Below, in pieces: positions 1-2,042 of a stretch of DNA of 64,000 nt. Source of the DNA: Nitratireductor mangrovi (GTDB lineage: Bacteria > Pseudomonadota > Alphaproteobacteria > Rhizobiales > Rhizobiaceae). The notes under the pieces are model-generated. The model saw only the letters and a program-made list of their open reading frames with translations. It did no database searches and had not been told where the DNA came from. Each line of letters begins with the position of its first letter. Position 1 is the stretch's first letter. The DNA lies in NCBI RefSeq assembly GCF_007922615.2, contig NZ_CP042301.2, positions 3,766,001 through 3,830,000 of the forward strand, written 5' to 3'. A program made the translations under genes and the position numbers.

Positions 1-873
1 CTCTCCCGTCGACACGCGCTCCCGTACCTTCGACGCCAGGCTCCCGTCAGCCAGATCCTTGACCAGATGGGCGGCGCGCGGGCCGGCGCCGCCGTGCTTC
101 GGGCCTTTCAGCGCGGCCAGCCCGGCGATTGCCGCGTCGTAGATGTTGAGCCCGGTCGAGATCGCGCACCGTAGCGTATAGGTCGAGGCATTGAGTTCGT
201 GGTCCGCGAGAAGCACCAGTGCGCGCCGGATAAGGTCGGTCGCAGCCGCATTGCCGGGCGCCCATCCCTGCGCGATCTGGCGATGCAGCGGCAAGGATGA
301 AGGTTGCGTCTTGAGGATCGTTGCAGCGACCAGACGCATCAGCCGCGCTCCAGTCCGCGCGCGCCCGTCGGCGGAACGGTTGAAAGCGGTCGGATCGGCG
401 TCGCCGGCCAGTGCCAGGACGGCGATCGCCCGCTCGATCGCCGCCGCCTCCGCTGTCGCGGAGACGATCGCGCACATGGCCGCGTTCATCACCGGAAGGT
501 TGCCGGCGGCGAACGCATCGGGACCGCTTGTGTCCCAGAGCAGCGTGGCCGCCTGTTCGAGCGTCGCGTGATCCGCCAGCGCCACCGCGTGCACGCCGCG
601 ATAAAGCGGGCCGGCCTCGGTGATGGTCGAGATGGCGGTATCGAGCACCGGCATATCCGCCTCGCCCGCCCGCGCGACGCCGGCGGGCGGCGCGCGCCGG
701 TTCTTGAGGGCCCGCACGTCTTCCGCGCGGTAGCGCTTGCCGCGCGACTGCGGCTCCGGTTCGGACCGGATCATGCCGCGGCTGACATAGGCATAAAGCG
801 ACGCCGGCGAGATCGCCAGTTCGGCCGCCGCCTCGCGCGCCGAGAGGTAAAGAGGTTCCGGCAAGTTTTTCAT
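1..873 (-). CDS. Citrate synthase family protein with N-terminal helix-turn-helix domain (3' end outside window)
   Basis: The 291 visible residues begin at ATG 873 and run off the left edge without a stop. Residues about 7-60 form a MerR/excisionase-like DNA-binding domain (LSAREAAAELAISPASLYAYVSRG, then a basic RGKRYRAEDV stretch); the rest is citrate synthase fold, with the two histidine motifs DHELNAST and GPKHGGA. The gene is divergent from a normal citrate synthase at 954. No Shine-Dalgarno precedes ATG 873, which lies inside one arm of a palindrome at 867-909, so the transcript may be leaderless or the start autoregulated. The family is known only as citrate synthase with an added HTH; enzyme activity and DNA binding are inferred. 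The active-site region near the C-terminus cannot be seen. Confidence 0.85.
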   Translation of the reverse strand, partial: MKNLPEPLYLSAREAAAELAISPASLYAYVSRGMIRSEPEPQSRGKRYRAEDVRALKNRRAPPAGVARAGEADMPVLDTAISTITEAGPLYRGVHAVALADHATLEQAATLLWDTSGPDAFAAGNLPVMNAAMCAIVSATAEAAAIERAIAVLALAGDADPTAFNRSADGRARTGARLMRLVAATILKTQPSSLPLHRQIAQGWAPGNAAATDLIRRALVLLADHELNASTYTLRCAISTGLNIYDAAIAGLAALKGPKHGGAGPRAAHLVKDLADGSLASKVRERVSTGE

Positions 874-909
874 ATTGATTAGCTTAATCAAGATTGATCA
901 ATATGAAAA
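867..909. promoter_or_regulatory. Nested palindromic operator between divergent citrate synthases
   Basis: A perfect 13-bp inverted repeat (TTTTCATATTGAT at 867-879 and its complement at 897-909) encloses two further palindromes: TTGATTA-GCT-TAATCAA (875-891) and ATTGATCAAT (893-902). The TTGAT/ATCAA half-site therefore recurs several times within 43 bp. It covers the ATG of the leftward gene and the upstream region of the rightward gene. It is probably bound by the HTH domain of the leftward product; that link is inferred. Confidence 0.7.
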
Positions 910-953
910 GTCTCCTCATCTTCGCGCGACGAGCGAAACGAAGGAGCACGGCC

Positions 954-2042
954 ATGACGGTTCATCCCAAACATCCCGAGGGACTTGATGGCGTCGTTGC
1001 CGCCGCCACTGCGCTGTCGCATGTGGATGGCGAGCGCGGCGAGTTGCTGATCGCGGGAACATCTGTCGGCGACCTCGTTCCTTGCACGAGCTTCGAGACC
1101 ATCACGGCCCGGCTCTGGTCGCTTGCGAGCGGCGAGGCGATTTCCGGCGAAACCGTCCGCGCAAAGCTTGGTGCAGCTCGCCTGGCCGCCCACGAGCGGC
1201 TTCCCTCCATTCTCGCGGTCACGCGCGGCGCTGAGGTCGCCAGCGGCTTCCGCGCAGCGCTGGCGGCGATGCGGTCACAGCAGGATTCGTCAGACGCCGC
1301 AATGCTCGCGGGCGCCATGCCGGTCATCACCGCCGCGCTCGTCCGCCAGGCGGCCGGCAAGGCGCCCGTCGCGCCCGATCCCCAGGCCGGACACGCTGCC
1401 GACCTCCTGCACATGCTGCGCGGCGAACCGGCGACAACCGCGGAAGCGGCCGCCCTGGATGCCTATCTGGTTACCGCCTCCGACCACGGCATGAACGCGT
1501 CGACCTTTGCCGGCCGTGTCGTCGCCTCCACCGGGGCCGATCTCTTCATGGCCGTTACCGCCTCCTATTGCGCCCTGACCGGTCCGCTCCACGGCGGCGC
1601 GCCGGGGCCGGTGCTGGCTATGCTGGACGAGATTCGCACGCCGGACCGCATCGCGCCCTGGATCGACGCGGCGCTTGCCCGCGGCGACCGGCTGATGGGT
1701 TTCGGCCACCGCATCTATCGGGTGCGCGATCCGCGTGCCGATGTGCTGCGCCGCGCCGTCGCCACGCTGAAGGCCGGCGCGGTCGATCTGGGCTTTGCCG
1801 CCGAAGTCGAGGCGTATGCGCGTGCCGCCCTGGCAAGGGCCAAGCCCGACCGTCCGCTCGACACCAATGTCGAGTTTTACACCGCGATCATGCTCGATGC
1901 GCTCGCGATCCCCCGCGACGCCTTCACGCCTGTCTTTGCCACGGCTCGGGTTGCCGGCTGGGTCGGGCATGCCATCGAACAGCAGCGCACCGGCCGGCTG
2001 TTGCGGCCGGCCTCCTCCTACACGGGACCTGTCCCGGTCTGA
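954..2042 (+). CDS. Citrate synthase / 2-methylcitrate synthase family protein
   Basis: This 362-residue protein carries the complete catalytic signature of type II citrate synthases: SDHGMNAST (first His), GPLHGGAPG (second His), MGFGHRIYRVRDPRA and the C-terminal HAIEQQRTGRLLRP arginine motif. It would condense oxaloacetate with acetyl-CoA or propionyl-CoA. ATG 954 is preceded by AAGGAG at 941-946; an in-frame ATG at 903 mirrors the start of the divergent gene but lacks a ribosome site. At about 362 residues it is shorter than the housekeeping GltA (about 430), so it is probably a paralogue working with the HTH-citrate synthase opposite, perhaps as a heteromer. Substrate cannot be told from sequence. 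Confidence 0.88.
   Translation: MTVHPKHPEGLDGVVAAATALSHVDGERGELLIAGTSVGDLVPCTSFETITARLWSLASGEAISGETVRAKLGAARLAAHERLPSILAVTRGAEVASGFRAALAAMRSQQDSSDAAMLAGAMPVITAALVRQAAGKAPVAPDPQAGHAADLLHMLRGEPATTAEAAALDAYLVTASDHGMNASTFAGRVVASTGADLFMAVTASYCALTGPLHGGAPGPVLAMLDEIRTPDRIAPWIDAALARGDRLMGFGHRIYRVRDPRADVLRRAVATLKAGAVDLGFAAEVEAYARAALARAKPDRPLDTNVEFYTAIMLDALAIPRDAFTPVFATARVAGWVGHAIEQQRTGRLLRPASSYTGPVPV

Follow-up and report, generated by a model that had tools for sequence, protein, structure and literature searches.

Two genes whose products have a citrate synthase fold lie back to back within positions 1–2042 of the window, the 64,000-nucleotide stretch of Nitratireductor mangrovi DNA analysed here, and one of the products appears to begin with an HTH domain. 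What is a citrate synthase doing with a DNA-binding domain of its own? The initial annotation proposed that it binds an operator between the two genes, senses metabolites through its enzyme fold, and controls the catalytic partner encoded opposite.

The leftward gene (1–873, minus strand, ATG at 873) runs past the left edge of the window, and at full length encodes a protein of 402 amino acids (G000:C1:3765668-3766873), here called HTH-CS. Residues 73–389 match the Pfam profile Citrate_synt (PF00285) with an E-value of 9e-64 and 216.2 bits against a cut-off of 27. The protein also matched 21 NCBIfam citrate synthase models, all below cut-off, the best with 178.4 bits against 421.3. An HTH_17/MerR-like DNA-binding domain was matched at residues 9–60 (694–849, minus strand). 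The HTH_17 match of the window protein (E 2.7e-4, 21.6 bits) is below the Pfam cut-off of 27; three relatives that were scanned gave 32.9, 32.7 and 36.6 bits, above it. Comparison of the HTH alone with solved structures gave three weak matches, to 6amk, 6ama and 2dg6 (E 0.13, 0.23 and 0.34). In an AlphaFold2 model of a relative 67% identical to the window protein (locus L037; pLDDT 91.8), helices and short strands in residues 12–60 are ordered as in a winged HTH, and the citrate synthase fold follows. The two profile matches, that to HTH_17 being sub-cut-off, together with this model, bear out the description of the leftward protein as an HTH joined to a citrate synthase fold. The second helix of the HTH, LYAYVSRG, is almost invariant among relatives, and Y27, Y29, V30, S31 and R32, in this helix and at its end, were each found in 78 of 78 HTH-CS proteins.

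Matches to HTH-CS were present in 97 plasmid records; the names seen among the 30 matches listed were 'citrate synthase family protein', 'citrate/2-methylcitrate synthase', 'citrate synthase', or none. Two more Citrate_synt matches in the N. mangrovi genome, at G000:C1:2780219-2780830 and 4815670-4816260, lie in frames of 277 and 297 amino acids and are possibly citryl-CoA lyase-like. A further genome of the same genus (G003, locus L150) carries an HTH-CS only 39% identical to that of the window, with a CitA partner and the operator described below, and two other searched genomes of the genus gave no HTH-CS match; this suggests horizontal transfer or replacement at L150.

The rightward gene (954–2042, plus strand), preceded by a ribosome-binding site, AAGGAG, recognised by eye at 941–946, encodes a CitA-type citrate synthase of 362 amino acids. 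It matches Citrate_synt with an E-value of 4.7e-92 and scores above threshold with PRK12350, a citrate synthase model of NCBIfam (398.3 bits against 332), so that its earlier reading as a complete citrate synthase stands. Its best solved relative is 2c6x, a Bacillus subtilis citrate synthase which we take to be CitA. The position of the catalytic Asp is Glu (NVEF) in 29 of 29 aligned partner proteins, and Asp in HTH-CS and PrpC. No neighbour that would fix the pathway was found among the nine frames of a 15-kb stretch around the pair (L006).

The perfect 13-bp inverted repeat described between the genes is present, with arms at 867–879 and 897–909. With loops of up to 40 allowed, a perfect 13-bp repeat occurs once in the 64-kb window, at this site, and one was obtained in 1 of 20,000 shuffles of 840–960, which keep base composition only. 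An inner pair of arms, 872–881 and 885–894, forms a 90% palindrome. When 116 loci encoding HTH-CS were aligned, the outer arms matched at a mean of 5.6 of 13 positions, and at least 12 matched in two loci only, the window and L037. As the arms are not conserved, the outer repeat was rejected as the operator, and the initial annotation does not hold in this respect. The conserved element is instead the inner 23 bp and its close flanks, a candidate operator that the outer repeat (867–909) encloses. A looser search pattern, TTGATTN5AATCAA with one mismatch allowed, was uninformative, and the aligned motif was used in its place.

This candidate operator, TTGATTAGCTTAATCAAGATTGA (TTGA-N9-TCAA-N-ATTGA), lies at 875–897. 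The loci in which it was sought were gathered by the HTH-CS protein alone, and comprised 30 from the order (29 and the window), 80 named loci and 28 distinct loci from the class. Those fetched were the best-scoring (the best 80 of 596 named, and 30 of the matches in the class and order searches), and many are near relatives of one another. The class search matches, in 116 genomes, include ordinary citrate synthases; four of the 34 order matches (G162, G035, G105 and G088) lie outside the fetched loci, and L002, L003, L007, L117 and L119, being repeats of other loci, were excluded from the counts. The exact 23-bp site was found upstream of HTH-CS in 116 of the 138 loci: all 30 of the order, 66 of 80 named and 20 of 28 further class loci. 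The absence of a conserved palindrome beside homologous pairs, which the initial annotation had set as grounds for refutation, was thus not observed. At all these loci the exact site has one orientation; L091 (Nitrospirillum amazonense) has an additional match on the other strand, and its HTH-CS gene is preceded by two copies of the operator that overlap, at a distance of 19 bp.

Seven more loci carry a spacer of eight bases rather than nine, eleven only the core TCAA-N-[AG]TTGA, and four (L047, L127, L133 and L138) not even the core, L047 being one base off. The shorter spacer was found in Acidobacteriota, Chloroflexota, Deinococcota, Myxococcota and a proteobacterial assembly; metagenome assemblies account for most loci outside Pseudomonadota, Calidithermus and Deinococcus being isolates. 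The site was also found at three plasmid loci, on pAt of Agrobacterium fabrum and on plasmids of Chelatococcus and, with the shorter spacer, Deinococcus. In controls, the exact site was absent from 275 stretches inside genes and from 2760 composition shuffles; the looser core occurred in none of the former and three of the latter. The site consists of 13 fixed bases at fixed spacing, kept in loci whose proteins are about 40% identical. The profile of the 116 loci was made from exact matches, so that its fixed columns are circular and only the flanks and the −10 region (see below) are independent. Protein alignments covered 26 of the 30 order proteins (A1; L013, L015, L028 and L033, with uncertain starts, were omitted) and 44 of the 80 named loci (A3).

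The gene opposite HTH-CS varies. Of 143 loci, 97 have a CitA-type synthase as the partner, 26 a family III CoA-transferase, 12 prpB (followed by prpC in 11) and three an HMGL-like enzyme; the remaining five face something else or nothing recognised. The names PrpB and PrpC rest on curated cut-offs at two loci and on similarity to these two at the others. Among the partner groups, 82 of 97 CitA, 24 of 26 CoA-transferase and 12 of 12 prpB loci have the exact site, as do two of the five others; all three HMGL-like loci have the site that is one base shorter. The five loci with another or no recognised partner are L059, L074, L082, L127 and L139, two of which have the exact site and two the core, while L127 lacks both the site and a known partner. 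Elsewhere, the frame examined for the partner at L225 gave no match to Pfam, and the opposite frame at L221 is methyltransferase-like.

A quick tree of 110 of 142 HTH-CS proteins, with near-copies thinned and a long branch at L181, implied seven changes among the four enzyme partners, or 11 with the other loci included. Since the site is kept when the partner changes, it belongs to HTH-CS. CitA-type synthases with an E-value below 1e-150 were found in 31 genomes of the order, and adjoin HTH-CS in all 31. Three weaker CitA relatives (E 1e-73 to 1e-80) are located away from HTH-CS, and the 5-kb stretches around them contained no site.

The CoA-transferases opposite HTH-CS (L063:1412-2872, L066, L071 and others) have an unusual layout: no best stretch is reported for roughly their first 200 residues, and the main match to CoA_transf_3 begins at about residue 200–270, covering positions 1 to about 207 of the 366 in the profile. 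The HMGL-like partners at L105 (Calidithermus) and L148 (a Deinococcus plasmid) are distantly like homocitrate and citramalate synthases, and score below all NCBIfam cut-offs.

Whole genomes were also scanned for the site. Of 199 genomes of the order, 34 had an HTH-CS match, which included the HTH in 33; the other, in G088, covers residues 206–398 only and was counted as an ordinary citrate synthase. With the pattern TTGAY-N8-TCAAK-ATTGA, a site adjoining HTH-CS was found in all 33 genomes whose match includes the HTH, and was the sole site in each except for one extra in G093. Nine of the remaining 166 genomes had a site. Altogether 33 of 43 sites in the order are at HTH-CS and 10 are elsewhere; the reversed pattern was absent from all 199 genomes. 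A motif-first scan covered 398 genomes of the phylum, which partly overlap those searched earlier; its slightly stricter pattern (TTGAY-N7-ATCAAK-ATTGAY) gave 46 sites in 44 genomes, against one for the reversed pattern. For 39 of the sites the distance to the start of an HTH-CS match is 92 bp or less, and the other seven have no HTH-CS nearby. The site therefore appears to serve chiefly as an operator of its own locus and not as the motif of a regulon.

Might the motif nevertheless be bound by a third protein, such as a global regulator, HTH-CS being a mere enzyme with an idle HTH? The 10 of 43 and 7 of 46 sites away from HTH-CS would fit such a protein. Against it stand the 33 of 43 and 39 of 46 at HTH-CS, the way the site tracks HTH-CS through changes of partner, and the five HTH residues invariant in 78 of 78 proteins. 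With most sites at HTH-CS, we consider a third-party regulator very unlikely. Binding of the site by HTH-CS itself is strongly implied, as the site follows HTH-CS from partner to partner and is rare without it. The earlier proposal that the HTH protein binds an intergenic operator thus gains strong support from co-segregation, with the 23-bp site in place of the outer 13-bp repeat.

The position of the site relative to the promoters bears on what a bound protein would do. Across the 116 aligned loci the third half-site reads as a −35 hexamer, TTGAYN. In the window, a putative −35 of the citA-type gene (TTGATC, 894–899, plus strand) overlaps this half-site, and a putative −10 (CATCTT, 917–922, plus strand) follows at a distance of 17 bp. 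A −10 with A2 and T6 was found at a spacer of 17 in 75 of the 116 loci; the other spacers from 12 to 27 gave no more than 15 loci each. By partner, the 75 are divided into 12 of 12 prpB, 18 of 23 CoA-transferase and 45 of 79 CitA loci, and none of two others; 34 of the 41 loci lacking A2 and T6 at this spacer are CitA loci. The −10 sequence is mostly CAGATT at prpB loci, and TAGACT at the CoA-transferase loci of Paraburkholderia. On the other side, the start codon of HTH-CS (873) is two bases from the site, which lies within the divergent promoter region of HTH-CS itself. No clear ribosome-binding site is present around this start codon (871–875), and with the operator 2 bp away the HTH-CS mRNA may be leaderless.

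As the motif contains a −35-like element, it could in principle be an overlapping promoter pair kept for transcription, with no regulator involved. The chance of this seems to us negligible: 13 bases are fixed at fixed spacing, the upstream half-sites, such as TTGAT at 875–879, fall outside the −35/−10 pair, and the motif is kept at about 40% protein identity and, one base shorter, in other phyla.

A protein on the predicted operator would cover the −35 of the partner, which suggests repression as the simplest reading, and the proximity of the HTH-CS start makes autoregulation likely. The same geometry would also suit an activator. HTH-CS could, when liganded, activate the divergent gene by touching polymerase at the −35; the operator overlaps the −35 and sits just upstream of it, as in class II activation, and the HTH of HTH-CS gives MerR-like matches, sub-cut-off in the window protein, MerR proteins being often activators. 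MerR-type activation uses a stretched promoter spacer, however, and here a good −35 hexamer, TTGAYN, is followed by a spacer of 17 bp, which makes promoter twisting of that type less likely. Activation is in our judgement improbable, and we prefer repression. The claim that HTH-CS controls a catalytic partner is supported to the extent that the site overlaps the apparent −35 of the partner; the partner is a citrate synthase in only 97 of 143 loci.

What HTH-CS would sense is indicated by its active site. H225, H260, H298, R307, D343, R368 and R387, presumably the catalytic and oxaloacetate-binding positions of citrate synthase, are all kept in 77 of 78 proteins, the sole exception being L106, with N for H225. 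This count is based on 77 of the 80 named proteins and the window's own; L064 (truncated) and L094 and L107 (late match starts) were excluded. The proteins of A3 are 38–68% identical to the first of the set, and conservation of the active site at such distances suggests either catalysis or a ligand that makes use of the entire site. The fold of HTH-CS is some 30–40 residues shorter in its middle than the citrate synthase models. The best match of the modelled Aminobacter ciceronei relative (L037) is the 2-methylcitrate synthase PrpC, 3o8j, with a TM-score of 0.74–0.76 by target. The prpB-prpC loci point first to propionyl-CoA and 2-methylcitrate as candidate ligands.

The fusion, the conserved operator, its co-segregation with HTH-CS, the promoter overlap and the kept active-site residues were all computed directly. 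Taken together, these sequence features make it probable that HTH-CS is a local sensor-repressor of citrate or 2-methylcitrate metabolism built from a citrate synthase fold; binding, repression and the ligand are the parts that we infer. A dimer or larger oligomer of HTH-CS would use its N-terminal HTH domains to bind the 23-bp operator, and most likely repress both genes, the operator overlapping the −35 of the partner and abutting the start of HTH-CS. Citrate synthases close on oxaloacetate; the fold of HTH-CS would bind oxaloacetate with acetyl- or propionyl-CoA, or citrate or 2-methylcitrate. The ligand would alter the arrangement or conformation of the domains, so switching DNA binding and releasing both genes. 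The target would be the acyl-CoA or tricarboxylate enzyme opposite, which is of CitA type here and elsewhere a CoA-transferase III, prpB-prpC or an HMGL-like protein. As the DNA-binding domain and the site travel together across partners and several phyla, the enzyme fold seems to have been turned into a metabolite sensor. It is a more tentative idea, and on balance a doubtful one, that members of this cross-phylum family are catalytically competent transcription factors, which would condense acyl-CoA with oxaloacetate and read flux by producing, or retaining, their own effector (citrate or 2-methylcitrate) while on the operator.

Regulators encoded beside such enzymes are known. The B. subtilis citrate synthase gene citA is divergent to that of a dedicated LysR-type repressor, CitR, an arrangement like the one predicted here; unlike CitR, HTH-CS has a citrate synthase fold. 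The trigger enzymes PutA, BirA and NadR are single proteins that combine an enzyme fold with DNA binding, as predicted for HTH-CS, but their enzyme folds differ. That an enzyme can regulate transcription is thus a general idea already known.

The prp operon of Pseudomonas aeruginosa is described as controlled by a GntR-family repressor, PrpR, with a wHTH and an FCD domain (PMC9765439). HTH-CS would likewise be a local regulator of a methylcitrate operon in the 12 loci, mostly of Lysobacteraceae, where it lies opposite prpB at the place expected of the regulator. Its sensor would differ from that of PrpR in being the methylcitrate synthase fold itself, and the GntR-family origin of PrpR makes non-homologous replacement of such regulators plausible. 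In Caulobacter crescentus, the citrate synthase genes citB and citC have consecutive locus tags (CCNA_03757 and CCNA_03758); CitB, reported to be 37% identical to B. subtilis CitA, complements an E. coli gltA mutant and CitC does not (PMC7083601). CitB resembles the CitA-type partner, whose closest solved structure is likewise from B. subtilis, and the two genes are probably a CitA-type/HTH-CS pair, with CitC as HTH-CS. The text consulted gives no regulatory role for CitC, and its main text nowhere uses the word 'helix' (PMC7083601). A 'citrate synthase-like protein', SCO5831 of Streptomyces coelicolor, is mentioned beside a two-component system in another paper (PMC9739823). No description of an HTH-citrate synthase regulator was found in open-access PMC titles and abstracts, among the matches listed. 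The HTH-CS family, its operator and its changes of partner appear undescribed within the open-access literature searched.

If HTH-CS is a sensor-repressor, this would explain the extra 'citrate synthase' that lies beside a citrate or methylcitrate gene in many bacteria, and would correct the common annotation 'citrate synthase family protein'. HTH-CS would then also be a clean, testable example of a transcription factor that took over an enzyme fold as its sensor domain. For particular groups, HTH-CS is proposed as the regulator of prpB-prpC in Lysobacteraceae, and of a family III CoA-transferase in Paraburkholderia and its relatives.
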